Shown: positions 1 to 21,817 of the stretch, in pieces
How positions within the stretch are numbered: the stretch's first letter is position 1
How the letters are laid out: each line of letters opens with the position of its first letter
NCBI GenBank assembly: GCA_011056645.1
Contig: DSEL01000155.1
Location: 1-41,960 of the forward strand
Length of the DNA stretch: 41,960 nt
Direction: 5' to 3'
DNA from: Candidatus Atribacteria bacterium
Lineage (GTDB): Bacteria > Atribacterota > Phoenicimicrobiia > Phoenicimicrobiales > Phoenicimicrobiaceae
The notes under the pieces: generated by a model
What the model was told of the DNA's origin: nothing
The model's input: the letters and a program-made list of their open reading frames with translations, nothing else
The model's database searches: none
Translations under genes and position numbers: made by a program

Positions 1-999
1 AGACTGCATGATGCGGGCTGCTGGATGATGGTTATTGGTCTGGAAAGCTTCAATCAGCGCTTGTTGGATTTCATGAACAAGGACACAACAGTTGAAATAA
101 ATGTTGAAGCCGTTAAAACCTGCCAGAGTTTAGGTGTTAAGGTTTGGGCTAACGTCATGTATGGATTGCCCACAGAAACCAAAGAAGAAGCACTAGAAAT
201 TTTATACAAAGAGGGAGTAAATGCTTGTATAGTAGCTGGCAGTACCAATGTTCTGCCTGATATTAAAATGAAAAAGTTAAGTCCAAAAATTTTAATAGAC
301 CTTTCTACCCTTAAGGAATTAAGAGGCATAGAAAATAAACAAAACAAAATCTGCATAAAACCTTTGACCACTATTGCCGAATTAACTCATTCAGAGCTTA
401 TACTAAAAGAAAGTAAAGTATTAATTCAATCTGCCGAACAATTTGCTGACCCTCTGGTAAGAAATAATGCCACTATCGGAGGAAATTTAGTTACTGCTTC
501 ACCGGCAGCAGATATGGCAGTGCCTCTCCTTGCCCTTGATGCCCTTATTAAAATAGAAAGTATTGAACAGAAGAGGGAAGTCAAGCTAAAAGAATTTTTC
601 CTTGGACCGGGCAAGACAGTTTTGCAGGATGATGAGATGATGGTAGGAATTGAATTTGAGCAGAGTGACATAAATAAAAATGGATATTTTGTTAAGCTGG
701 GGCAAAGAAAGGCTATGGCTATTGCCATAGCTAGTTTAGCCTTGAACTTAGCAATGAAACAAAACAAAATTATTCAGATTCGTATTGCTATGGGCTCTGT
801 AGCCCCCAGGCCAATTAGGCTGACTGTGGTGGAAAAATTTTTAGAAAATAAAGAAATAAGTAGTAAATTAGTGGAAGAAGCCGTAAGCAAAATAAGAGAA
901 GAAGTCAATCCCATTAGCGATATACGAGCATCTGCTGAATATCGTCGATATATTTCCGGAATCCTTTTCAAGCGAGCACTTGAAAAATTGACTCATTAA
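1..999 (+). CDS. Chimeric ORF: radical-SAM tail fused to xanthine dehydrogenase FAD-binding subunit (5' end outside window)
   Basis: The frame is open to the left edge, so the true start lies outside the window; the first in-frame ATG is at 25. The first ~60 codons (1 to about 185) read like the late barrel of a B12-binding-type radical SAM protein (DAGCWMMVIGLESFNQ, then MYGLPTET). From about 187 the protein becomes the FAD subunit of a molybdenum hydroxylase: EEALEILYKEG, the flavin loop AGSTNVLPD, and ADPLVRNNATIGGNL followed by SPAADMAVPLLALDA. The FAD part is nearly full length (about 270 residues), lacking only the usual first ~10-15 residues. It sits just upstream of the 2Fe-2S and Mo subunits, where an FAD subunit is expected. 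The N-terminal part has no place in that complex, so this looks like a deletion fusion or an assembly join. The ATG at 157 could restart a near-normal FAD subunit, but I see no good ribosome site before it. Confidence 0.85.
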   Translation, partial: RLHDAGCWMMVIGLESFNQRLLDFMNKDTTVEINVEAVKTCQSLGVKVWANVMYGLPTETKEEALEILYKEGVNACIVAGSTNVLPDIKMKKLSPKILIDLSTLKELRGIENKQNKICIKPLTTIAELTHSELILKESKVLIQSAEQFADPLVRNNATIGGNLVTASPAADMAVPLLALDALIKIESIEQKREVKLKEFFLGPGKTVLQDDEMMVGIEFEQSDINKNGYFVKLGQRKAMAIAIASLALNLAMKQNKIIQIRIAMGSVAPRPIRLTVVEKFLENKEISSKLVEEAVSKIREEVNPISDIRASAEYRRYISGILFKRALEKLTH

Positions 1000-1083
1000 A
1001 TAATTAGATATTATTCATTTATTTATTATTTATTATTTTTTACTCATTACTTAATTTATTACTTATCAAAAAGGAGGCTTTAA

Positions 1084-1575
1084 ATGGAAGAATATAGAAT
1101 AGAACTAACCGTAAACGATGAAAAAATAATTGGAACCGCCAAGGCTGAAGAATCTCTGTTAAAATTTTTACGCAGACATGGTTTTAGTGAAGTAAAATGC
1201 GGCTGTGAAAAAGGAGAATGCGGTACTTGTACGGTTATTCTGGATAAAAAAGCTATTAAATCCTGTATTACCTTAGCTCTCCGGGCTGACCACAAAGAAG
1301 TATGGACCGTGAAAGGTATGGAAAAATTAGAATTAGGGAGAAAATTACAGGAAAGTTTTGTTAATCACGGGGCCATACAATGTGGTTTTTGTACCCCGGG
1401 AATGATTCTTACTGCTAAAGATTATTTGGATAAAAATCCACTTCCCAATAGAGAGGAAATTAAAAAAGCAATATCTGGAAATCTATGCAGATGTACCGGA
1501 TATAAGAAGATTGTTGATGCCATTTACGATGTGGCGGGAGAGAATCATAAATTGGGAGGTGATATCGATGTCTGA
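1084..1575 (+). CDS. Molybdenum hydroxylase small subunit, two 2Fe-2S clusters (xanthine dehydrogenase family)
   Basis: This 163-residue iron-sulfur subunit passes electrons from the Mo site to FAD in XDH/CO-dehydrogenase-type enzymes. The N-terminal plant-ferredoxin-like cluster uses C41, C46, C49 and C61 (in CEKGECGTC and a later Cys). The C-terminal helical cluster uses C100 and C103 (CGFCTPG) and C135 and C137 (CRCTGY). Length and motif order match the family. The start is set by AAGGAGG about 6 bases before the ATG. Its last 8 bases overlap the start of the Mo subunit (ATGTCTGA), which indicates coupled translation. An A/T-rich stretch of 84 bases separates it from the FAD gene. Substrate cannot be read from this subunit. 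Confidence 0.95.
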   Translation: MEEYRIELTVNDEKIIGTAKAEESLLKFLRRHGFSEVKCGCEKGECGTCTVILDKKAIKSCITLALRADHKEVWTVKGMEKLELGRKLQESFVNHGAIQCGFCTPGMILTAKDYLDKNPLPNREEIKKAISGNLCRCTGYKKIVDAIYDVAGENHKLGGDIDV

Positions 1576-3871
1576 ATTTAAGATAGTTGGTAAACCCATA
1601 CCCCGGCATGATGCCTGGTCAAAAGTAACCGGAGACCTTAAATACGCTGACGATTTTACTATGCCCGGAATGTTATTTGCCAAAGTTCTTCGCAGCAAAT
1701 ATCCGGCAGCTAAAATTATTTCTATAGATACTGGTAAAGCAGAGCAATTAGATGGCGTAAGAGCTGTTTTAACCGCTAAAGATGTTCCTCACAATGAAAC
1801 AGTAACCAAGTTTGGTCAGAGCACGGAAGTTGGTAAAGGATTTGAAGGTTTATACCGGGTTTTAGCCGAGAAAAAAGTCAGATTTATGGGAGAAGCAGTT
1901 GCTCTGGTTGCTGCCGAGACAGAGGAAATTGCCGAGGAAGCCTTGGATCTAATTGAGGTAAAGTATGAACCCCTCACCGGGGTTTTTGATCCTTTAGAGG
2001 CCATAAAGCCGGGTGCTTATCTGGTGGGAGAAAGCAAGTCCAATATCATAGGCGAATTTGGCTGCCAGCAAGGTGACCTGGAAAAAGGTTTTGCCCAGGC
2101 AGATGTAATAATTGAAGATACCTATAAGGTGCCTTTTGTTGACCATGCTTATTTAGAACCAGAAGCGGGCATTTCCTGGATAGATGATTATGGAATACTT
2201 ATAATCCGGGTAAGTACCCAAGTAATAGAGCACTTTAGAGATGTAGCTGATGTATTGGGTTTGCCCCATAATAAAGTCCGATATATAGGGACTATGATGG
2301 GCGGAGGTTTTGGCGGTAAAGAAGATATTACCGTGGAAACTTATTTGGCTCTGCTTACCTGGAAGACTAAGAAACCGGTAAGATTAGTTTATACCCGCGA
2401 AGAATCTATCTTGTGCCATAGCAAAAGACATCCTTTAGTGATGAAGTATAAAGTTGGCGCGAAAAAAGATGGTAAGCTTATCGCTTTAGATGCGGACTTA
2501 ATATCTGATGCCGGCGCCTATCCTTACTTAAGTCCCTGGGTCACTTTATACGCAACGGTTAATGCAGCCGGTCCTTATTGTATTCCCAATGTGAAAGTCA
2601 GAGCTCATTGTGTATTAACTAACAATACTTTTACCAGTGCTAACAGAGGATTTGGAGCCCCCCAACCTAATTTTGCTTATGAAAGCATTATGGATGAATT
2701 ATCTCATAAACTGAATATAGACCCTCTGGAAATCAGGCGTAGAAATTGCCTTACTACCGGAAAAGCTTTGGCGACAACCGGTCAGGTCTTCAAGACCTAT
2801 GTTGCTCTTCCGGAAGTTGCCGAAAAAGCCTGGAAAGCTCTGGGAGAGTCTACTGAATGTAAAAAAGATGAAGGCAGAAAAATAGGACGAGGATTAGCAA
2901 TTGGGTTGATGAGCTATGGCCGGATGACCTTTCTTCATGACTCTTCCCGCTGCTACGTAAGGTTGGAGTCAGACGGGAGTATATTGATTAGATCCGGGAT
3001 ACCTGATTTAGGAGGGGGGCAGATTTCTTTACTCTGTCAGATTGTTGCTGAAGAACTGGGAGTGCCTACGTCCCGGGTAAAGATTTACCATAGCGATACC
3101 GCATTGACCCCTCTTGCCGGAACCACCACTGCTACTCGACAGACCTATATGTCCGGGAATGCAACTCTTAAAGCTGCCCGAGAAATAAGAAACAGAATTT
3201 TGAATAAAGCTGCGGAAATATTAAATGTTAATCAAGATAAATTAGATCTTATTAATGAAAAAGTTATAGTTAACTATGATCCCTCGCAATATGTTCCTTT
3301 AGTAAAAGTGATACAGGTTTGCAATGCGGATGGAATAGAGTTGTTTTGTGAAGCCCAATTTAATGCCCCCTCTACCATGGTGCCTGACTTATCTAATATA
3401 AGAGGGATGACCTTTCCTGATTTTACTTTCGGAGCCCAGGCAGTAGAAATAGCTGTGGATACGGAAACCGGGCAGGTTGAAATCTTAAAACTTGTAACCT
3501 GTTATGATGTGGGAAAAGCTATTAATCCTTTAAGTGTAGAAGGCCAGATGGAGGGTGGTTCTATCTATGGAATGGGCTATGCCCTGACCGAAGAGGTTAT
3601 TATGGAAAAGGGAATGACCATGACCCCCTCTTTTGCTGAGTATATTATTCCTACAGCGGCTGATGTGCCTGATGTAAAGGCGATTCTGGTAGAATCAGGC
3701 GGAGGATTAGGTCCTTACGGAGCTAAAGGAATCGGTGAGCCTTCCTGCAGTATAATTGCTCCGGCTATCTTGAATGCTATTTATGATGCAGTTGGTGTGA
3801 GAATTAAGAGTTTACCGGCAACTCCGGAGAAAATAATAAGGGCTTTAAAGAGTGATTATTTTAGGAAATAG
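1568..3871 (+). CDS. Molybdenum hydroxylase large (Mo-cofactor) subunit, xanthine dehydrogenase family
   Basis: This 767-residue catalytic subunit binds the molybdopterin cofactor and hydroxylates an N-heterocycle or aldehyde. The ATG at 1568 is chosen because GGAGG precedes it and the resulting N-terminus (MSEFKIVGKPIPRHDAWSKVTG) is standard for the family; the frame is open about 19 codons further up without support. Family signatures are the Moco-binding GGGFGGKED at residues 245-253, NRGFGAPQ (substrate-side Arg), GTTTATRQTYMSGNA, and the catalytic Glu in GAKGIGEPS at E724. The loop that often reads GQG in xanthine dehydrogenases reads DLGGGQ here. The downstream yqeC/mocA/yqeB/yedE set suggests it is a selenium-dependent hydroxylase with a labile Se ligand rather than selenocysteine; no in-frame UGA is seen. 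Purine, xanthine or nicotinate-like substrates are possible and cannot be separated from sequence alone. Confidence 0.93.
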   Translation: MSEFKIVGKPIPRHDAWSKVTGDLKYADDFTMPGMLFAKVLRSKYPAAKIISIDTGKAEQLDGVRAVLTAKDVPHNETVTKFGQSTEVGKGFEGLYRVLAEKKVRFMGEAVALVAAETEEIAEEALDLIEVKYEPLTGVFDPLEAIKPGAYLVGESKSNIIGEFGCQQGDLEKGFAQADVIIEDTYKVPFVDHAYLEPEAGISWIDDYGILIIRVSTQVIEHFRDVADVLGLPHNKVRYIGTMMGGGFGGKEDITVETYLALLTWKTKKPVRLVYTREESILCHSKRHPLVMKYKVGAKKDGKLIALDADLISDAGAYPYLSPWVTLYATVNAAGPYCIPNVKVRAHCVLTNNTFTSANRGFGAPQPNFAYESIMDELSHKLNIDPLEIRRRNCLTTGKALATTGQVFKTYVALPEVAEKAWKALGESTECKKDEGRKIGRGLAIGLMSYGRMTFLHDSSRCYVRLESDGSILIRSGIPDLGGGQISLLCQIVAEELGVPTSRVKIYHSDTALTPLAGTTTATRQTYMSGNATLKAAREIRNRILNKAAEILNVNQDKLDLINEKVIVNYDPSQYVPLVKVIQVCNADGIELFCEAQFNAPSTMVPDLSNIRGMTFPDFTFGAQAVEIAVDTETGQVEILKLVTCYDVGKAINPLSVEGQMEGGSIYGMGYALTEEVIMEKGMTMTPSFAEYIIPTAADVPDVKAILVESGGGLGPYGAKGIGEPSCSIIAPAILNAIYDAVGVRIKSLPATPEKIIRALKSDYFRK

Positions 3872-3873
3872 GA

Positions 3874-3888
3874 AAAACAGAGAACCGT
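3874..3888. repeat. 15-bp direct repeat, left copy
   Basis: The sequence AAAACAGAGAACCGT occurs here, just after the xdh stop codon, and again at 4775-4789, just after the methyltransferase. The two copies are identical, 901 bases apart and in the same orientation, and they bracket one gene. The core resembles the AGAGAACCGTC motifs seen at the ends of some REP/IS200-like elements, from memory only. Confidence 0.6.
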
Positions 3889-3913
3889 CACCTGTTTTAG
3901 CAAAGAGGTAGTC

Positions 3914-4741
3914 ATGGATAAAGAAAAAGTAAAGCTTCGGAATGAAAAAGAGACTCTATTGATACCGCTTTATTGCAAGTATCTAGAAAGCCAAAAAGAT
4001 TCGCCGATTATCAAAGATGAAAAAGCAATCGAAATGGTCAATAGTATTGAATATGATTATGAACAATTACAAATTCCCAAACAAACCTATGTTACAATCT
4101 GTCTGAGAGTAAAACAATTTGATAATTATGTTAATAATTTCTTAATGGCTGAACCTGATAGTATTGTTATTCATTTAGGATGTGGTCTTGATAACCGATT
4201 TAAGCGGGTTGATAATAATGCAGTTGAATGGTATGACTTGGATTTTCCGGAAGTAATCGAATTACGGAAGCATTTTTATCAGGAGACAGAAAGATATCAT
4301 TTTATTTCATCACCGGTTATGGAATTGAATTGGTTAGACAGCATAAATGCTAAAAATAAATGGGTAATCATTCTGGCAGAAGGTTTATTCATGTACCTGA
4401 AAGAAGAGGAGGTAAAATTATTATTTCAAAGTTTCCAAAATAAATTTTCCATTAATACTATTATTTTTGATAGTTATAGTGCGCTTACAGCAAAAAGCAT
4501 AAAAAACCATCCCTCAATTAAAAAAACGGGTGCAGTTATTCGTTGGGGAATTGATAACGCAAAGGATATCGAATCATGGGGCAATAAAATATATCTCAAA
4601 GAGGAATGGTATTTCACGCAATCTGATGAGATCAACAAATTGGATATCGGTTACAGAATTCTATTTAAATTAATGAGTTTATTTCCGATGGCACGAAAAG
4701 CACATCGCATATTAGTATTTCAAATCGGAGATATTAAATGA
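3914..4741 (+). CDS. Class I SAM-dependent methyltransferase, leucine carboxyl methyltransferase / TcmP-like family
   Basis: A 275-residue protein of the LCM (PF04072-type) fold. The SAM-binding glycine motif is HLGCGLDNRF at residues 88-96, followed by WYDLDFPEVIELRK (acidic strand end) and the family block VIILAEGLFMYLKEEEV. The length fits TcmP/Ppm2-like bacterial members, which O-methylate carboxylates or small metabolites; the substrate here is unknown. A weak ribosome site (AAGAGG) precedes the ATG. The gene lies inside a block that interrupts the xdh maturation operon and is flanked by identical 15-bp repeats, so it is probably an acquired cargo gene. The reading frame stays open for 78 more codons after its TGA. 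Confidence 0.82.
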   Translation: MDKEKVKLRNEKETLLIPLYCKYLESQKDSPIIKDEKAIEMVNSIEYDYEQLQIPKQTYVTICLRVKQFDNYVNNFLMAEPDSIVIHLGCGLDNRFKRVDNNAVEWYDLDFPEVIELRKHFYQETERYHFISSPVMELNWLDSINAKNKWVIILAEGLFMYLKEEEVKLLFQSFQNKFSINTIIFDSYSALTAKSIKNHPSIKKTGAVIRWGIDNAKDIESWGNKIYLKEEWYFTQSDEINKLDIGYRILFKLMSLFPMARKAHRILVFQIGDIK

Positions 4742-4978
4742 AAGTATCAGTTTATTGTTAGATCTTTCGAGCATAAAACAGAGAACCGTTGTACTAGCTC
4801 AATAAATAAATTTATCCGGTTACCAAGGTTTAAGCAGAACTATAAAAAATTATCTCTTCAATTTCAAAAAAGAATCAATCAAGCCTACTTACAAATGGAA
4901 AGAGATTTGAAACACCTTTCTTTGGATACAAAAAAACTTAAAAGGAACAAATTCTATTTGGGAGGCGAGGGCTTCTAA
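4742..4978 (+). other. Open frame of 78 codons without a start, directly after and in frame with the methyltransferase stop
   Basis: The codons after the TGA at 4739-4741 stay open until TAA at 4976-4978. The peptide is basic and helical in look (for example KKLSLQFQKRINQAYLQ). I do not recognise it. There is no ribosome site, and the only in-frame ATG is at 4894. It may be the remnant of a truncated gene, or chance in A/T-rich DNA. Confidence 0.25.
4775..4789. repeat. 15-bp direct repeat, right copy
   Basis: AAAACAGAGAACCGT, identical to 3874-3888. Together the copies mark the likely edges of a mobilised or duplicated segment carrying the methyltransferase. Confidence 0.6.
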
Positions 4979-5059
4979 AAGCTTCGGTAATTACGACCCC
5001 CTGTTTTTAGTCAATTTTTAGCTCCCCAAAATCACAAAACCATTGTAAAGAGCCACTTT

Positions 5060-5087
5060 CAATTTTTGGAGGGGTGAAAATTTAGCT
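5060..5087. repeat. Short imperfect direct repeat, copy 1
   Basis: The core TTTTTGGAGGGGTGAAAA followed by TTTAGCT matches, with a few changes, the unit at 5096-5122 (TTTTTGAGGGGTAAAA followed by CCATAGCT). The units start 36 bases apart. They look like binding-site iterons of a lost mobile-element end. Confidence 0.45.
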
Positions 5088-5095
5088 AAAAAAAG

Positions 5096-5122
5096 CCATT
5101 TTTGAGGGGTAAAACCATAGCT
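5096..5122. repeat. Short imperfect direct repeat, copy 2
   Basis: The core TTTTTGAGGGGTAAAA followed by CCATAGCT is the partner of 5060-5087. Confidence 0.45.
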
Positions 5123-5399
5123 CGACTTAAAATAATGCGCCAAAAGCGATATCTCGCATTCTGACTCTAAAATCCTTATATTATAAGGCTTTTCTCTTGC
5201 TATAAATTAGTTAAAATCATAAACTTTAAGCTCCTGCCCTCTTCTTGATCTTCCCCAGGAGTCCTAAAGAAGAAAATCCTCAAGGAGCGTGGGGTATGAT
5301 GAATAGATATATTAGCGTCTTTAAGAATGAACCTTAAGAGAGAGAAGTCGAGATTTTATTGTTGAAAGTGACTTTTTTCAAGTCTTATCTAAAATAGTC

Positions 5400-5428
5400 T
5401 TGACTTTTTTCGAATTAATTAGTATTAT
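5400..5428 (+). promoter_or_regulatory. Sigma-70-type promoter giving a probably leaderless transcript
   Basis: TTGACT (5400-5405), a 17-base spacer and TATTAT (5423-5428) form a near-consensus promoter. The expected start of transcription (about 5434-5437) coincides with the ATG at 5436 of the ATPase gene, and no ribosome-binding site precedes that ATG. The gene is therefore probably read from a leaderless mRNA. Confidence 0.6.
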
Positions 5429-5435
5429 GGGTGCT

Positions 5436-6653
5436 ATGAAAGAGAGAATACTTTATCAGAAAATATGGCAAAAGCTATCATCTTATAAAAATATGGTATT
5501 TTTGTCCGGTCCCAGGCAAAGCGGAAAAACGACCTTTGCAAAGATAATTGCCAGAGATTTTAAAAATCAAGTTTACTTTAATTGGGATGATATTCCTAGC
5601 AAGAGAACATTGATACGGGATCCTTACTTCTTTGAGAAAGTCGACCGGATGGATGAATCGATTCCTTTGGTTATTTTTGATGAAATTCATAAATACAGCA
5701 ATTGGAAGAATTACCTCAAGGGAGTTTATGACAGATTTGCTGAAGAATATAAGATTCTTGTCACCGGTAGCGGTAGATTAGATTTGTATCAAGAAGGTGG
5801 AGATTCCCTGGCTGGCAGATATATGAAATTTCATCTATTGCCTTTTACCTATTCAGAATTGATAAATAAACAAAACTCGATAACGGATTTCATAAGCAAT
5901 CCCTTTCATTTTCAAGAGGATAATCAAACGGACTATGGTCTGTGGGATGATCTTTTTGAACTTAGTGGATTCCCTGAACCGTTTTTGAAAGGGGAAAAGG
6001 ATTTTTACCGATTATGGTCAAACAATTATCAGCACCAGTTAATTCGGGAAGATATTCGAGATTTAACTCAAATCAAAAAGTTTGATTCCCTGGAAATTTT
6101 GTATTCCCTCTTACCGCTAAAGGTAGGTAATCCTCTTTCTTTAAGTTCATTAAATTCAGATGTCCAAGTATCTGTGGACAGTGTCAAAACCTGGCTCGAA
6201 GTATTTGAGATCCATTATTTGATATTTCGAATATCACCATGGACACATAAAATTTCCCGGGCAATTAAAAAGGAAAAAAAGGTTTATCTTTTTGACTATG
6301 CACAAATAAATGATCGAAGTATACGTTTTGAGAATATGATTGGCTTAGAGTTATACAGGGCAATTTTTAATTGGAACGATTTGGGATTAGGATATTTTTC
6401 CCTGCATTATATTCGCAATAAAGAAAAAGAAGAAGTTGATTTTCTTATTTGTAAAGATCATTATCCTATATTGCTGATTGAATGTAAATTATCAGATGAA
6501 AATATCTCCAATAGCTTGATTAAATTTCAGAATACGCTCAATATACCTGCAATTCAGTTGGTAAATAAACCACATGTTGGAAGAATGGTAACCAATCAAA
6601 AAAATAAGAGTTTAATTATATCTGCTCCCAGGTGGTTATCCTTTTTGCCGTGA
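5436..6653 (+). CDS. DUF4143-type AAA ATPase (archaeal-like ATPase with C-terminal PD-(D/E)XK-like domain)
   Basis: A 405-residue P-loop ATPase. The Walker A motif is GPRQSGKTT (residues 25-33), the Walker B region is LVIFDEIHK, and the sensor-like block ILVTGSGRLDLYQEGGDSLAGRY is diagnostic of this family. The C-terminal DUF4143 part ends with EEVDFLICK and LLIECKLSD, a nuclease-fold-like core (D, then E-x-K). Such proteins are common, often strain-variable genes of unknown role, sometimes linked to mobile DNA or defence. In-frame TTG (5400) and ATG (5427) codons lie upstream, but they overlap the promoter elements, so ATG 5436 is preferred. It lies in the inserted block between the xdh operon and yqeC and is probably foreign to that operon. 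Confidence 0.85.
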   Translation: MKERILYQKIWQKLSSYKNMVFLSGPRQSGKTTFAKIIARDFKNQVYFNWDDIPSKRTLIRDPYFFEKVDRMDESIPLVIFDEIHKYSNWKNYLKGVYDRFAEEYKILVTGSGRLDLYQEGGDSLAGRYMKFHLLPFTYSELINKQNSITDFISNPFHFQEDNQTDYGLWDDLFELSGFPEPFLKGEKDFYRLWSNNYQHQLIREDIRDLTQIKKFDSLEILYSLLPLKVGNPLSLSSLNSDVQVSVDSVKTWLEVFEIHYLIFRISPWTHKISRAIKKEKKVYLFDYAQINDRSIRFENMIGLELYRAIFNWNDLGLGYFSLHYIRNKEKEEVDFLICKDHYPILLIECKLSDENISNSLIKFQNTLNIPAIQLVNKPHVGRMVTNQKNKSLIISAPRWLSFLP

Positions 6654-6728
6654 TGTTTGGTTGTGCAGGTGAGAATCGGTTCGGAGAAAATAATCAGAGC
6701 TTTAAAAAAAGATTACTTTAAAAAATAA
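6652..6728 (+). pseudogene. Relic of a second xdh Mo-subunit 3' end
   Basis: After the ATPase stop, the frame ending in TAA at 6726-6728 reads VQVRIGSEKIIRALKKDYFKK. This matches the last residues of the Mo subunit at 3790-3871 (VGVRI, then PEKIIRALKSDYFRK), with about seven residues lost between VRI and SEK. The DNA is also clearly related (for example GAGAAAATAAT in both). It has no start or domain and cannot be functional. It shows that a Mo-hydroxylase gene once ended directly upstream of yqeC. Confidence 0.75.
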
Positions 6729-6799
6729 ACTATGTATCCCTTAAAAACCTTTGTTTAAAAAGTTAAATTACTATCATAATTAAATAAGGATTGAATAAA

Positions 6800-7609
6800 A
6801 TGTTAATCAGTGAGGCGTTAGATCTAAAAGAAAAGGCCTTTATATCTTTAGTAGGAGCCGGAGGGAAGAGCACCCTTTTTAATCGATTAGCCGAAGAGCT
6901 GCTTCTTAAAAATAAGCGGATGATCCTAACTGCTACTACTAAGATGTTTACCTGGCAGTTGGCTCCTTTTATAAAAAAGGGCAAATTAGTTGAAGGCCAC
7001 GACGAAGAGTCCATTCGGAAATTGGTTAAACAATACTTTTCTATGAAAAGTAAAAACGGTAAATTGGTAGTTATTGGAGAGAAGATCGAGGATAATGGAG
7101 AGGAAAAAGTATCCGGTCCGCCCCCTGACTGGTTGGATAAAGGGTGGAAGGATAAGTTGGCCGATTATTTCTTGGTAGAAGCTGATGGGGCAGCGGGGAG
7201 ACCGGTAAAAGCCCCGGCGTCTCACGAACCGGTCATTCCTTTATCGACTACAGATTTAATCGGAGTGATTGGTCTTGATGCCCTGGGTCTTTCTTTGAGG
7301 GAAGAAAGTGTTTTTCGTTCTGAAATTTTCTCTCAGCTGACCGGAGTAAAATTGGGAGAAAGGATTGGGATGGAAGCTTTATCTCTTTTAATCTGCCATC
7401 CCGAAGGTTTATTTAAAGGAACCCCTCCGGGTTGCCGCCGCCATCTTTTTATTAATAAAGTAGAAAACTCTAAAGATCTAAAAAAGGCAGAAGAATTGAC
7501 TTTCCAGGTTTTAAAAATCTGTCATCGAAAAATAAGTAATATAATCATTGGAGCAGCGAATCAGAAGGAAGTGGTAGCTGAAGTGATCAGAGAGGAAAAA
7601 ACGCCATGA
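6800..7609 (+). CDS. yqeC: Selenium-dependent hydroxylase accessory protein YqeC
   Basis: A 269-residue P-loop protein of the YqeC family found with selenium-dependent molybdenum hydroxylases. It has Walker A GAGGKST (residues 19-25), TATTKMF, the family core FLVEADGAAGRPVKAPASHEPVIP, and GVIGLDALG. Its exact step is not established; it is thought to help insert or prepare the Se-modified molybdenum cofactor. ATG 6800 is preferred over the in-frame TTG at 6791 because AAGGA at 6786-6790 is well spaced only for the ATG. The stop overlaps the next start (ATGA), so translation of the two is coupled. Confidence 0.92.
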   Translation: MLISEALDLKEKAFISLVGAGGKSTLFNRLAEELLLKNKRMILTATTKMFTWQLAPFIKKGKLVEGHDEESIRKLVKQYFSMKSKNGKLVVIGEKIEDNGEEKVSGPPPDWLDKGWKDKLADYFLVEADGAAGRPVKAPASHEPVIPLSTTDLIGVIGLDALGLSLREESVFRSEIFSQLTGVKLGERIGMEALSLLICHPEGLFKGTPPGCRRHLFINKVENSKDLKKAEELTFQVLKICHRKISNIIIGAANQKEVVAEVIREEKTP

Positions 7610-8220
7610 TCTACGGAATCATTTTAGCGGCAGGTGAAGGTAAAAGGATGGGCAAAGTAAAACTAACTCTTCCCTTAGGTGATAAGCAACTGATAGAATG
7701 GGTGTTGCAAGCAGCAAAATTAGCTCCTTTAGATAAATATTTTTTGGTGCTCCGCCCGGAAGATAAAGAGATGATCAAGATAGGTGAAAGCTGGGGAGCT
7801 GAAATTGTGCTTAATCCTGATTTTCGTAAAGGAATGAGTACTTCAATTAAGAAGGCTTTGCTAAAAATAGACATTCAGGAAGTAGAAGGATTTTTTCTAA
7901 TTTTAGGAGATCAACCCTTAATTACTTCTAAAGTTATAAATCAATTAATAAAATCTTTTTCTCCGGGCAAAGCAGAAATAGTGGTACCTTATTTTAAGGA
8001 TAAGCGAGGTAATCCGGTTCTTTTTGATATTTACTGGAAAGATGAATTAATGGCGGTAACTGGTGATGTAGGAGGGAGAGTGTTAATTAAAGCCCATCCC
8101 GAAAAGGTAAAAAGAGTAAATATTCCAGATGAAACAATTTTATTTGATATTGATCAAGAAGAAGATTATTTAAAAGCCCAGAGGTATTTAAAATTATTAG
8201 ATAATAGAAGGGAAAATTGA
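7606..8220 (+). CDS. mocA: MocA-like nucleotidyltransferase (molybdenum cofactor cytidylyltransferase family)
   Basis: A 204-residue GT-A-fold NTP transferase. The N-terminal signature IILAAGEGKRMGKVKLTLP (nucleotide-binding loop and Lys) and FFLILGDQPLI (metal/nucleotide site) match MocA/MobA-like enzymes. MocA transfers CMP from CTP to molybdopterin to form the dinucleotide cofactor used by XDH-type enzymes. Its place between yqeC and yqeB, overlapping both by 4 bases, supports a role in maturing the nearby Mo hydroxylase. The gene symbol is by family and context; nucleotide specificity is not proven. Confidence 0.88.
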   Translation: MIYGIILAAGEGKRMGKVKLTLPLGDKQLIEWVLQAAKLAPLDKYFLVLRPEDKEMIKIGESWGAEIVLNPDFRKGMSTSIKKALLKIDIQEVEGFFLILGDQPLITSKVINQLIKSFSPGKAEIVVPYFKDKRGNPVLFDIYWKDELMAVTGDVGGRVLIKAHPEKVKRVNIPDETILFDIDQEEDYLKAQRYLKLLDNRREN

Positions 8221-9020
8221 ATTTGGATAATATATTGATAGTTATTCGCGGCGGAGGAGATCTGGCCACCGGGGTGGCTGTAAGGCTTTTTCGAGCTGGA
8301 TTTCCGGTAATGATTTTAGAAATAGAACGTCCTACCGTCATCCGTCTTCCCGTTTCTTTTGCTCGGGCAGTTTATGAGGGTAAGGCTATGGTAGAAGAGA
8401 TAGAAGCTGTTTTAATTCCTTCCTGGGAAAAAGCGAAAGATGCTATTAAGCAGGGAAAGATCCCGGTTTTAATAGATCCGAAAGGAAGTTGTATTAAAAA
8501 ACTTTTCCCTACTGTTTTAGTGGATGCTATTTTGGCCAAACGTAATTTAGGAACCAGGAAAGATCAAGCTCCTCTGGTCATCGGATTAGGTCCGGGATTT
8601 ACCGCAGAGGAGGATGTTGATGTAGTCATAGAAACCAAGCGAGGGCATTACCTGGGGAGAGTTTACTATCAAGGGCAGGCTATACCGGATACCGGTGTGC
8701 CCGGAGAAGTAGGGGGAGAATCTAACAGAAGATTACTGCGAGCTCCGGTTGAAGGTAAAATTGTACCATTGCATCAAATAGGAGATTTAATTAAGTCAGG
8801 TGAGATCATTGCAGAAGTGGAGGGAGTTCCTTTAAAAGCAGAAATATCTGGTGTTCTGAGGGGATTAATTCATTCTCAAAGTAAGGTTACCAAGGGGATG
8901 AAGGTTGGCGACATTGACCCGAGAGGAATTAGAGATTACTGCTTTACCGTTTCCGATAAAGCTCGTTCGTTGGGAGGAGCAGTTTTAGAGGCAATCTGCG
9001 CTTATTTAAATAAAAAATAG
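8217..9020 (+). CDS. yqeB: Selenium-dependent molybdenum hydroxylase maturation protein YqeB
   Basis: A 267-residue YqeB-family protein (EF2563-type). Hallmarks are VIRGGGDLATGVAVRLFRAGF, a Rossmann-like glycine-rich start, LEIERPTVIRLPVSFARAVYEG, VLIDPKGSC and GLGPGF. YqeB occurs almost only in genomes with Se-dependent Mo hydroxylases and is thought to act in their maturation. The start is TTG at 8217, overlapping the previous stop (TTGA) and preceded by AGAAGGG; no upstream ATG is available. A probable promoter and ModE-like operator lie directly after it, so the unit yqeC-mocA-yqeB likely ends here. Confidence 0.92.
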   Translation: MNLDNILIVIRGGGDLATGVAVRLFRAGFPVMILEIERPTVIRLPVSFARAVYEGKAMVEEIEAVLIPSWEKAKDAIKQGKIPVLIDPKGSCIKKLFPTVLVDAILAKRNLGTRKDQAPLVIGLGPGFTAEEDVDVVIETKRGHYLGRVYYQGQAIPDTGVPGEVGGESNRRLLRAPVEGKIVPLHQIGDLIKSGEIIAEVEGVPLKAEISGVLRGLIHSQSKVTKGMKVGDIDPRGIRDYCFTVSDKARSLGGAVLEAICAYLNKK

Positions 9021-9035
9021 CTAAGGAAAAATTTT

Positions 9036-9068
9036 TTTACATTCCGTTATATTTATATTAGAATAACG
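9036..9068 (+). promoter_or_regulatory. Promoter with overlapping ModE-like dyad operator
   Basis: TTTACA (9036-9041), a 17-base spacer and TAGAAT (9059-9064) make a good sigma-70 promoter for xdhC and the genes after it. A dyad at 9045-9068 (CGTTAT, 12 bases, ATAACG) covers the spacer and -10. It resembles the CGTTATAT-type half-sites of ModE and closely matches the site at 13070-13093. A protein bound here would block RNA polymerase, so repression is the likely mode. Confidence 0.6.
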
Positions 9069-9110
9069 ATTAGGTGATAGAGGTAATTTTGTAAAAGGAG
9101 GGGAGAGTAG

Positions 9111-9899
9111 ATGTCAGAGATCTTAAAAGAAGCGATTAGAAGAATTGATAAAGGTGAAACAGTTGCTTTAGTTACTGTGGTGGAAACTGATGGTTCTACT
9201 CCAAGAGAATTGGGAGCGAAGATGATAGTGAGCAAGGATGGCTTGATAGCCGGAAGTATCGGAGGCGGAATAACCGAAAGTAAAGTAATCGAGGAAGTAA
9301 AACAGGCACTAAAGGAAGGCAAGGGAAAGCTTTTAACTTACCATTTAACCAAAGAACAGTCTGCCTTGGATGAAGGAGCTATTTGTGGTGGTGAGATGAA
9401 AGTTTTTATAGATATCCTGCAACCCAAAGAAGAAGTATTGATTTTCGGGGCAGGCCATATTGCTGTCTGTGTCTCTAAATTGGCCAAAATGGCGGGATTT
9501 AAAGTAATTATTGTTGATGATCGAAAAGAATTTGCCAATCAAGATAGATTTCCGGAAGCCGATGAAGTAATAGCTGAAGAAATAGAAGAAGCTCTAACCC
9601 ATCTTAATATTACCCCTTCTACCTATATTATTATATTAACCCGAGGGCATTTGAAAGATGAAGAAGTCTTGACATCAGTGATTGGGTCAGGTGCTGCCTA
9701 TATAGGGATGATCGGAAGTCGGAAAAAGAATGCCACTATCTTTCAACATTTAATAAAAAAGGGAATATCCCAAGAAGCGCTGAACCAAGTTCATGCCCCC
9801 ATCGGGATTGATATTGGAGCCCAGACTCCCGATGAGATTGCAGTCAGTATCATTGCCCAAATTATTCAATACAAAAGAAGTAAGAAGGGAAATATATAA
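9111..9899 (+). CDS. xdhC: XdhC/CoxI family Mo-hydroxylase maturation protein
   Basis: A 262-residue protein. The N-terminal XdhC/CoxI domain has ALVTVVETDGSTPRELGAKMIV, GSIGGGITES and CGGEMKVFID. The C-terminal Rossmann domain has LIFGAGHIAVCVSKLAKMAGF and IVDDRKEF. In characterised systems XdhC binds Mo cofactor and helps sulfurate and insert it into the enzyme; in Se-type operons a related role with selenium is likely. A strong AAAAGGAGGGGAG site precedes the ATG. It heads the operon xdhC-yedE-tusA-like-csd-DUF3343, which has its own promoter and ModE-like operator. Confidence 0.93.
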   Translation: MSEILKEAIRRIDKGETVALVTVVETDGSTPRELGAKMIVSKDGLIAGSIGGGITESKVIEEVKQALKEGKGKLLTYHLTKEQSALDEGAICGGEMKVFIDILQPKEEVLIFGAGHIAVCVSKLAKMAGFKVIIVDDRKEFANQDRFPEADEVIAEEIEEALTHLNITPSTYIIILTRGHLKDEEVLTSVIGSGAAYIGMIGSRKKNATIFQHLIKKGISQEALNQVHAPIGIDIGAQTPDEIAVSIIAQIIQYKRSKKGNI

Positions 9900-9903
9900 A
9901 GTT

Positions 9904-10995
9904 ATGTTAAAAAAATTTTTTTGTTCTCGAAAGAATATCATTTTTACCGGAATCTTTATTGGTATTTCCGCAGCCTTTTTACAAAAATTAGGGAATCCGG
10001 CTAATATGGGGATTTGTGTAGCCTGTATGTTGCGGGATATTGCCGGCGCTTTAGGTTTTCATCGGGCAGCAGCAGTGCAATATATTCGCCCTGAAATCAT
10101 CGGTTTTGTTTTAGGTTCTTTAATAGCAGCCCTCATATTTAAGGAGTTTAAACCCCGGGCTGGTTCGTCCCCCCTTATCCGTTTTGTCTTAGGTTTTTTG
10201 GCGATGATCGGCGCCTTAGTCTTTTTGGGTTGTCCCTGGCGCACTTTGTTACGATTGGCCGGTGGCGATGGCAATGCCCTTTTTGGATTGGCGGGATTAG
10301 TAGTAGGGATTTGGATAGGAATATTTTTTATTAAATCAGGTTATAATTTAGGCCGAAACCAAGAAGTTTATCCTTTAGTCGGTTGGATTATGCCGCTTAT
10401 CATGGTAGGGCTTTTTCTACTTCTTATTTTTCGGCCTCAATTGCCTTCAGGGGCGGTTTTCTTTAGTAGGGGGGGAGCTGGAGCTCAGCATGCTCCTATA
10501 TTGATAGCATTGGTCATCGCAATGTTAATTGGATTTTTTGCCCAAAGAACCAGGTTTTGTACCGTGGCAGCCGTTCGAGATGTGATCCTTATTAAAGATA
10601 CTTACCTTTTTACAGGAGTGGTGAGTCTGTTATTGGCTGCTTTGATAAGTAATCTGATATTAAAACAATTCCATCCCGGTTTCCAGGATCAACCCATTGC
10701 CCATACTAACCAATTATGGAATTTTGGAGGCATGGTTTTAGCTGGATTGTCTTTTACCTTAGCCGGAGGTTGTCCCGGCCGCCAACTCTTCCTTTCCGGG
10801 GAGGGCGATGCCGATGCCGCTGTATTTGTTCTGGGGATGATTGCGGGAGCAGGCTTTGCTCATAATTTTGCTATAGCTAGCTCCTCGGAAGGACCGGGTC
10901 TTTGGGGACCTGCTTCAGTTATTACCGGATTAATTATCTGTCTTATCATTGGAATTAGTATGAGTGATTTAGTAAAAAAGAAAAAAGAGGCATAA
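9904..10995 (+). CDS. yedE: YedE-family selenium transporter (YeeE/YedE-type membrane protein)
   Basis: A 363-residue membrane protein with about ten hydrophobic segments and internally repeated halves. Conserved Cys/Gly motifs include NPANMGICVACMLRDIAGALG, FLGCPWRTLLRLAGGDGNALFG, AQRTRFCTVAAVRD and LAGGCPGRQLFLSGEGDADAA. These match the selenium-metabolism branch of YeeE/YedE (thought to import a selenium species) rather than the thiosulfate importer. ATG 9904 with upstream AGAAGGGAAA is chosen; the frame is open further up inside xdhC, but that part is not membrane-like. It follows xdhC by 4 bases and precedes a TusA-like gene, the usual YedE neighbour. Confidence 0.92.
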   Translation: MLKKFFCSRKNIIFTGIFIGISAAFLQKLGNPANMGICVACMLRDIAGALGFHRAAAVQYIRPEIIGFVLGSLIAALIFKEFKPRAGSSPLIRFVLGFLAMIGALVFLGCPWRTLLRLAGGDGNALFGLAGLVVGIWIGIFFIKSGYNLGRNQEVYPLVGWIMPLIMVGLFLLLIFRPQLPSGAVFFSRGGAGAQHAPILIALVIAMLIGFFAQRTRFCTVAAVRDVILIKDTYLFTGVVSLLLAALISNLILKQFHPGFQDQPIAHTNQLWNFGGMVLAGLSFTLAGGCPGRQLFLSGEGDADAAVFVLGMIAGAGFAHNFAIASSSEGPGLWGPASVITGLIICLIIGISMSDLVKKKKEA

Positions 10996-10999
10996 GCTT

Positions 11000-11212
11000 A
11001 TGAGTGAGAAAATCGATGTCCGGGGATTTTCCTGTCCGCTTCCGGTAGTAACGGTTAGAAACAAACTGTTGGAGATAAAAAAAGGAATTTTAGAGGTTTT
11101 AATAGATACCGGAACGGCTAAAGATAATATTACTCGGATGGCTGAAAATGCAGACTGGAAAGTAGAAGCAAAGGAAGAGGGTGGAGAATATTTACTTACC
11201 ATTTCCAAATAG
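11000..11212 (+). CDS. TusA/SirA-like sulfur (selenium) carrier protein
   Basis: A 70-residue TusA-fold protein with the family signature DVRGFSCPLP, whose Cys12 would carry persulfide or perselenide. It matches the N-terminal domain of YedF selenium-metabolism proteins, but the C-terminal DsrE-like domain of YedF is absent. The gene starts 4 bases after yedE, so a cytoplasmic partner that receives the imported selenium species is likely. It could equally carry sulfur; only the neighbourhood favours selenium. Confidence 0.9.
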   Translation: MSEKIDVRGFSCPLPVVTVRNKLLEIKKGILEVLIDTGTAKDNITRMAENADWKVEAKEEGGEYLLTISK

Positions 11213-11238
11213 AAAAAATGAGTTTGAAAGGGAAAATT

Positions 11239-12390
11239 ATGATTTATTTCGATAATGCAGCTACCTCTTATCCCAAACCTAAAGAGGTAAGCGAGGCGAT
11301 GCTTCATTTTTTGGAAAAAGTCGGTGCCAGCCCCGGGCGTTCCGGTCATCGGCTTTCTATAGAGGCTGGGCGTATTATTTATCGGGTCAGAGAGAGTTTA
11401 GCGGAATTATTTAATGTCGATGATCCTTTGCGAATTATATTTACTTTGAATGTCACCGAGGCTTTAAATCTTGCTTTGAAGGGGCTGCTAAGGCCTGGAG
11501 ACCAGGTAATTACCAGCAGCTTGGAACATAATTCAGTTATGCGGCCTCTTCGAGAATTGGAGAAAGAAGGGATAGAGGTTGAATTAGTTTCTTTTTCGCC
11601 TAAAGGTTTTCTTGAACCCCAAGATATAGAAAAATCGATTAAAAAAAATACCAGATTAATCGTCTTAAATCACGGCTCTAATGTAATAGGTAGTCTACTA
11701 CCTATTACTGTTGTGGGAGAGATCGCCAAAAGACACGATATTCTTTTTTTAGTAGATACAGCTCAAACTGCAGGCTGTTATCCTTTAGATTTTAAAAAAG
11801 ATAATATTGACCTTTTGGCTTTTACCGGCCACAAAGCTCTTTTTGGACCACAAGGTACAGGAGGGTTGGTAATCGGAGAAAGAGTGAATGTTAAAAAATT
11901 AAGTCCCTTAAAGACCGGGGGGACAGGCAGCCGTTCAGAGTCAGAAGAGCAGCCAAATTTCCTACCGGATATCTATGAAAGTGGAACTCCCAATACAGTA
12001 GGCTTGGCCGGATTAAATGAGGGTGTTCGATTTGTCCTGAAAGAAGGGATTGATAAAATTCGTCAACATGAACTTCGTTTACATCAGAAATTAGTTACCG
12101 GATTAAAAGAAATACCGGGAGTAATAATTTATGGAGAAGGACAGGGAAAAGATCGGATAGCGGTTATTTCTTTTAATGTTAAGGACCAATTGCCTTCAGA
12201 AGTGGGATTAAAGCTTAACGAAGAATATAATATTATGTGCCGGGTTGGCTTGCATTGTTCCCCGGTTACTCATAAAACTATTGGTACTTTTCCTACGGGA
12301 ACGGTTCGTTTTAGCATGAGTTGGTTTAATACTTTTAAAGAAGTAGACCAGGTCATTATGGCGGTAAAAAATATTGCTAAAGAGAAATAA
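11239..12390 (+). CDS. Cysteine desulfurase-family PLP enzyme (selenium-cluster type)
   Basis: A 383-residue fold-type I PLP enzyme of the aminotransferase class V family. It has YFDNAATSYPKP at the start, SLEHNSVMRPL, VDTAQTAGC, the PLP lysine in FTGHKALFGPQGTGG (K199), and the active-site Cys in GLHCSPVTHKTIGTFPTGTVRFS (C340). This subgroup sits beside YedE, TusA-like and Se-dependent hydroxylase genes in many anaerobes and may release Se from selenocysteine or S from cysteine. ATG 11239 has a good AAAGGGA site; an ATG at 11218 is in frame but has no ribosome site and adds residues the family lacks. The downstream DUF3343 protein could accept the chalcogen. Confidence 0.92.
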   Translation: MIYFDNAATSYPKPKEVSEAMLHFLEKVGASPGRSGHRLSIEAGRIIYRVRESLAELFNVDDPLRIIFTLNVTEALNLALKGLLRPGDQVITSSLEHNSVMRPLRELEKEGIEVELVSFSPKGFLEPQDIEKSIKKNTRLIVLNHGSNVIGSLLPITVVGEIAKRHDILFLVDTAQTAGCYPLDFKKDNIDLLAFTGHKALFGPQGTGGLVIGERVNVKKLSPLKTGGTGSRSESEEQPNFLPDIYESGTPNTVGLAGLNEGVRFVLKEGIDKIRQHELRLHQKLVTGLKEIPGVIIYGEGQGKDRIAVISFNVKDQLPSEVGLKLNEEYNIMCRVGLHCSPVTHKTIGTFPTGTVRFSMSWFNTFKEVDQVIMAVKNIAKEK

Positions 12391-20953: not shown

Positions 20954-21817
20954 ATGAACTTACAAATGTTAATAAATGCTGTTCTGTTGGGGGGATTATA
21001 TGCCTTAATGGGCATCGGTTTTTCCTTGCAGTGGGGTATTAGCGGAATCATTAATTTGTCCTATGGAGCAATGGTTATATTAGGTTCTTATATTTCCCTG
21101 GAATTTTTTAATTTATTTCACCTCGATCCTTTTATCAGTATGATAATTTCTGGCGGTATCCTTTTTGTCATAGGAGCAGGAATATATCGCACCCTCTTAC
21201 AACCATTACTTAAAGGTGGAATTGTTTTTACCCTTATTTTAACTTTTGCTTTTCGATTGGTGATAGAAAATATTATCCTGAAGGTGTGGTCTGCTGATTA
21301 TCGTACTATACGTGTCACTTACGCTGGTAGTAATTTTCAATTTGGCGATGCCTATATTCCCTTAATAAAGTTTTTAGTTTTCTTTGTGGCTGCCATATTA
21401 ATTTATTTGACCTATCTTTTTATGATGAACACGAAAACCGGGAAAGGAATTCAGGCAGTTGCCTTGGATAAAGAAGGAGCACAGGCGGTAGGGATAGATG
21501 TAGAAAAAATGTACCTAATTAATTTTGCTTTGGGAACTGCTTTGGCAGGATTAACCGGTTCTCTTTGGGCAAGTATCTATAGTTTTTCTCCCCATCTTTT
21601 AGGTCCCATCGTGGGGAAGGTATTTATTATTGCCATACTTGGTGGATTGGGAAATATCTGGGGTGCAGCTGCCGGAGGATTGCTCCTGGGGATTGCAGAA
21701 ACTGCGGGGGCAGTATTCCTTGGTTCGGAGTGGCAAGAAGCTATCGGTATGGTCATTATGGTAAGTGTGTTACTCTGGAGACCATACGGACTTATGGGGA
21801 AAAAGTTTTTTGGATAA
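20954..21817 (+). CDS. livH: Branched-chain amino acid-type ABC transporter permease LivH
   Basis: A 287-residue membrane permease of the LivH family with about eight hydrophobic segments. It starts LINAVLLGGLYALMGIGFSLQWGISGIINLSYGAMV, the canonical LivH N-terminus. The coupling motif is AVALDKEGAQAVGIDVEKMYLINFALG, and ILGGLGNIWGAAAGGLLLG lies near the C-terminus. It is first in a livH-livM-livG-livF-livK order. HAAT importers carry amino acids but also urea, amides and aromatic acids. With carbamoyl-handling genes on both sides, a ureide or amino-acid-like substrate is plausible. Confidence 0.93.
   Translation: MNLQMLINAVLLGGLYALMGIGFSLQWGISGIINLSYGAMVILGSYISLEFFNLFHLDPFISMIISGGILFVIGAGIYRTLLQPLLKGGIVFTLILTFAFRLVIENIILKVWSADYRTIRVTYAGSNFQFGDAYIPLIKFLVFFVAAILIYLTYLFMMNTKTGKGIQAVALDKEGAQAVGIDVEKMYLINFALGTALAGLTGSLWASIYSFSPHLLGPIVGKVFIIAILGGLGNIWGAAAGGLLLGIAETAGAVFLGSEWQEAIGMVIMVSVLLWRPYGLMGKKFFG

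Follow-up and report, generated by a model that had tools for sequence, protein, structure and literature searches.

An in-frame radical-SAM/FAD-subunit fusion at a Candidatus Atribacteria contig end is most probably a chimera

Results

The window analyzed here, a stretch of 41,960 nucleotides, is the entire contig C155 of a Candidatus Atribacteria draft genome (2.25 Mb, 231 contigs, 96.6% complete, 0.9% contamination), and its base 1 is base 1 of the contig, i.e., a contig end. Frame 1 of positions 1–999 is open for 332 codons and extends past the window start. In this one open frame, Pfam searches revealed a Radical_SAM match at codons 1–61 (E 1e-8) and a molybdenum hydroxylase FAD subunit match at codons 60–330 (E 6e-42). 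With the whole frame as query, Radical_SAM aligned to residues 1–68 with 36.9 bits, a significant match which covers only positions 96–163 of the 166-position profile, followed by FAD_binding_5 at residues 60–218 (143.7 bits, profile 10–166 of 170) and CO_deh_flav_C at residues 231–329 (92.2 bits), both of the latter exceeding their cut-offs of 27 and 25.5 bits. Each part also matched its own family when searched separately; the 62-residue tip alone aligned to profile positions 96–157 of 166 (E 1e-8). The earlier note had read the codons before about 185 as radical-SAM and those after as FAD subunit, and both assignments were borne out, the former by a tip match far above chance.

The FAD subunit gene (FAD2; 175–999, + strand) lacks its first ~10–12 codons in the window. 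It adjoins the genes for a 2Fe-2S subunit (FeS2; 1084–1575, + strand; NCBIfam XdhC_XDHase family, E 2e-50, below cut-off) and a molybdenum-binding large subunit (Mo2; 1568–3871, + strand; NCBIfam pucD/4hydrxCoA_A, E 4e-170, below the equivalog cut-offs), as expected of a molybdenum hydroxylase, and both are syntenic in relatives. Further downstream follow yqeC (6791–7609), a MocA-like nucleotidyltransferase (7606–8220), yqeB (8217–9020), an XdhC-family factor (9111–9899), a YedE-family putative selenium transporter (9793–10995) and a cysteine desulfurase/selenocysteine-lyase-like protein (11218–12390). Positions 1084–12390 thus place the hydroxylase genes beside a maturation cluster for selenium-dependent molybdenum hydroxylases. 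YqeB, YqeC and SelD, the last of which is encoded elsewhere in the genome, are markers of such enzymes (PMC2276186, PMC11448449), so that FAD2 most likely represents the electron-transfer flavin subunit of a selenium-dependent molybdenum hydroxylase. In this role, which we infer from the marker genes, intact FAD2 would receive electrons from the molybdenum site via the 2Fe-2S subunit.

The SelD match (L128, G000:C186:52946–53872) spans the full length of the family and contains one in-frame TGA, which may encode selenocysteine. Between the Mo subunit gene and yqeC, positions 3914–6653 carry a leucine-carboxyl-methyltransferase-like gene and an AAA_14/DUF4143 ATPase gene. Since the two flanking genes are nearly adjacent in three relatives (L034, L035, L036; gap under ~100 bases), ~2.9 kb look inserted in the window. 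The distal end of the window had no sequence in common with other contigs of the genome.

FAD2 was found in two genomes of the same genus (G001, G003) and four of the same family (G009, G010, G011, G013), with 58–79% identity. In these relatives the matches begin at the FAD part; the match in G001 reaches slightly upstream, through stop codons. Normal gene starts were read in G001, G003, G009, G011 and G013 (MNHFKYVSPETKEEALKIL, MDQFKYISPKTKEETLKIL, VSQFRYISPKTKEEVLKIL and similar), G010 being left out as its anchor fell in the preceding FeS gene. The gene order in relatives is Mo1-FAD1-FeS1-(spacer)-FAD2-FeS2-Mo2, and FAD2 adjoins the FAD1/FeS1 genes in all six; none of the relatives searched carried the radical-SAM piece as an extension of the FAD gene. 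The two tandem molybdenum hydroxylase modules, Mo1-FAD1-FeS1 and FAD2-FeS2-Mo2 (L006 and window 175–3871), are kept across the family. In viral contigs, no relatives of the FAD part were found.

A near-identical FAD gene also lies at the end of another contig of the same assembly, C66, which is 21,560 bases long and ends at base 21,560 inside this gene. Here, the start is intact, with a ribosome site GGAGGAGAGG, a GTG start codon followed by VNQFKYISPKTKEEVLKILNEEG... and a protein beginning VNQFKYISPKTKEEVLKILNEEGVNACIIAGSTNVLPDIKMKK..., in agreement with the earlier note's view that the window copy had lost its first residues. The last 47 bases of C66 are identical to window positions 415–461 (+ strand). 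Over the full overlap (window 175–461, C66:21274–21560), 263 of 287 bases match (~92% DNA identity), in patches: identical runs of 71 and 47 bases occur beside a stretch, 303–357, with only 76% identity. Among the differing codons, 14 of 19 change the residue. Given these differences, C66 may come from another strain, and the patchiness of the overlap may reflect a strain mixture or further chimerism.

Upstream of its FAD gene, C66 carries Mo1-FAD1-FeS1, as in the relatives, and a permease-like gene. The sole near-identical match to window 400–3900 outside the window is C66:21499–21560, and the FeS2 and Mo2 genes are single copy in the genome and lie in the window, so that C66 and C155 look like neighbors. 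On the plain reading of these sequences, the two contigs would be parted by an assembly break within FAD2.

DNA alignment with the relatives placed the edge of homology sharply at window position 175. Identity at 121–174 is at background (0.43–0.49) and rises to 0.82–0.92 at 184–461 with the three closest sequences; 5′ of 175 the window diverges from all aligned sequences, and 3′ of it agrees with them. Judged from these alignments, the join is at 175, with an ambiguity of 175–204, since PTE.EEAL also occurs at this place in radical-SAM relatives. The previously proposed boundary of about 185 was thus right to within a few codons, as was the observation that the join falls at ETKEEAL, a string natural in both families. 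The join zone (175–204, + strand; ETKEEALEIL) fits both parents: the 17 bases at 175–191 are identical to G001, and the radical-SAM relatives read FPTEKEEEALETM or FPTETREEV at this point. The longest exact string common to the join zone and the radical-SAM loci compared is 11 bases. PTE.KEEAL-like strings are thus present in both parents, which explains why the reading frame is kept across the join; a false join could plausibly have formed at the shared ETKEEAL-encoding string.

The foreign tip itself (1–174, + strand) resembles an internal piece, from the late barrel, of a B12-binding radical-SAM protein. It gave partial, sub-cut-off NCBIfam matches to HpnJ and rSAM_ocin_1. No CxxxCxxC motif occurs within the visible tip; this motif and the B12-binding domain would lie beyond the contig end. 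Protein and DNA searches found the 183-base tip in single copy in the genome. The best matches in genus and family had 33–36% identity and lay inside ordinary radical-SAM genes, and no further matches were obtained at 1e-9 among 50 genomes of the phylum. The closest relatives found in species genomes, with up to ~50% identity, were B12-binding radical-SAM proteins, for the most part from Nitrospira and Brocadia.

An alignment built from six distant radical-SAM pieces proved too heterogeneous for use as a scan query, but a search of species genomes with a two-row alignment returned 209 tip relatives, of which the best 80 were examined. Among these 80, the protein runs ~90–116 residues beyond the piece, the open frame begins ~415–430 residues before it in most loci, and no FAD subunit gene was found within flanks of up to 2.5 kb on each side. 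Single-sequence queries retrieved no close tip relative from genome contigs (84,980 species) or from viral contigs; no tip relatives were found in phages, and those in plasmids had only 33–43% identity. The third-position GC content of the tip is 0.51, compared with 0.33 (SD 0.07) for 303 same-length segments from the window's genes, 1.3% of which are as high. Its codon usage departs mildly, with 6% of segments equally extreme.

Discussion

The earlier note had left two options for this frame, a genuine fusion and a chimeric contig, and our analysis strongly favors the latter. With high confidence, we consider the first ~174–204 bases of the window to be a chimeric contig end and the fusion to have arisen artificially, during assembly or library preparation. 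The join lies near a contig end, the tip is foreign, and a normal gene with an intact 5′ end is present elsewhere in the assembly, on C66, with normal starts in close relatives as well. A piece of a B12-binding radical-SAM gene from another organism of the community would have been joined to the FAD gene, either in the assembler or through a chimeric molecule in the library, at a point where both genes encode a PTETKEEAL-like sequence. The exact cause we infer from the tip, which is roughly one short read long and would fit either a chimeric read or a false walk through the assembly graph. The true upstream region of the FAD gene would then be, or resemble, the end of C66, giving the order Mo1-FAD1-FeS1-permease-FAD2 start, continued by window position 462 onward. 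Consistently, the N-terminal strand that normally precedes the FAD domain is present on C66 and in relatives and absent from the window copy, a loss that we attribute to the chimeric end.

Four observations speak against a chimera. No stop codon interrupts the open frame at the join, although this can be accounted for by the ETKEEAL string common to both parents. Moreover, C66 and the window disagree at some positions of their overlap, with 263 of 287 bases shared. The tip's codon usage is also only mildly unusual, 6% of segments being as extreme. Finally, the separate search of both halves for intact parents succeeded for the FAD gene, whose start was recovered on C66, but not for the tip, for which the best match reached ~50% identity.

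A real rearrangement in a single strain, in which a deletion or horizontal insertion joined the two genes while the strain represented by C66 keeps the intact gene, appears unlikely. It would agree with the open frame, and the 8% difference between the C66 and window versions in the overlap suggests that two gene variants may exist. However, no close relative of the tip was seen in the genus or at any other place in the genome, the tip sits exactly at the contig end, relatives retain the normal gene, and the downstream genes are single copy. The specific proposal of a fusion by microhomology deletion was likewise not supported, given the start on C66, the normal genes in relatives and the lack of radical-SAM extensions there. 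Even if such a rearrangement were true, it would most likely have yielded a defective radical-SAM protein with a crippled FAD subunit instead of a new enzyme. That a minor strain carries a horizontally gained in-frame join encoding a two-domain redox protein is very improbable.

Less probable still is a real but harmless join in a genome with two FAD copies, an intact one on C66 and a pseudogene in the window. Such a pair could show the patchy 92% DNA identity found over the overlap, but C66 stops exactly where the copies become identical, the sole FeS2 and Mo2 genes of the genome accompany the window copy, and the genes expected upstream lie on C66. A standing protein of this clade, with FAD subunits bearing a radical-SAM N-terminal extension, finds only the open frame in its favor and is refuted within the genomes searched: the earlier note had named such an extension as a result that would overturn its fusion, and across 61 genomes the FAD and radical-SAM matches lay in separate genes throughout, the window itself excepted, with no two-domain architecture in the 60 other genomes or in the best 80 of 209 radical-SAM loci, none of which held an FAD gene.

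The probable chimeric end of C155 calls for caution, since short conserved strings such as ETKEEAL allow a false join to keep the frame, and an in-frame, domain-plausible fusion at a metagenome contig end can consequently be an artefact. Unless such a fusion is corrected, protein databases would take it up as a two-domain architecture that is not real.

Compared with known systems, residues 60–330 cover nearly the whole family length of FAD (medium) subunits such as CoxM/CutM and XdhB (PF00941 and PF03450), the nearest solved chains by sequence being CutM of CO dehydrogenase (1ffv_C, 1.8e-32) and the FAD subunit of nicotinate dehydrogenase (3hrd_C). Unlike these subunits, the window copy lacks the first ~10–12 residues, present on C66 and in the relatives. 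Residues 1–68 align gap-free, at up to ~50% identity, with B12-binding radical-SAM proteins from the Nitrospira/Brocadia group (HpnJ and rSAM_ocin_1 profiles), whereas the tip holds only ~61–68 of ~600 residues, with ~420 before and 114 after it missing. As a whole, the arrangement resembles the chimeric contig ends described for short-read metagenome assemblies (PMC8172020), where foreign sequence likewise occupies the extreme contig end. In the published example, the genomes that were joined are highly similar, whereas the parents here are unrelated genes with a short common string, so that a chimeric read, and not graph sharing, may have been the cause.
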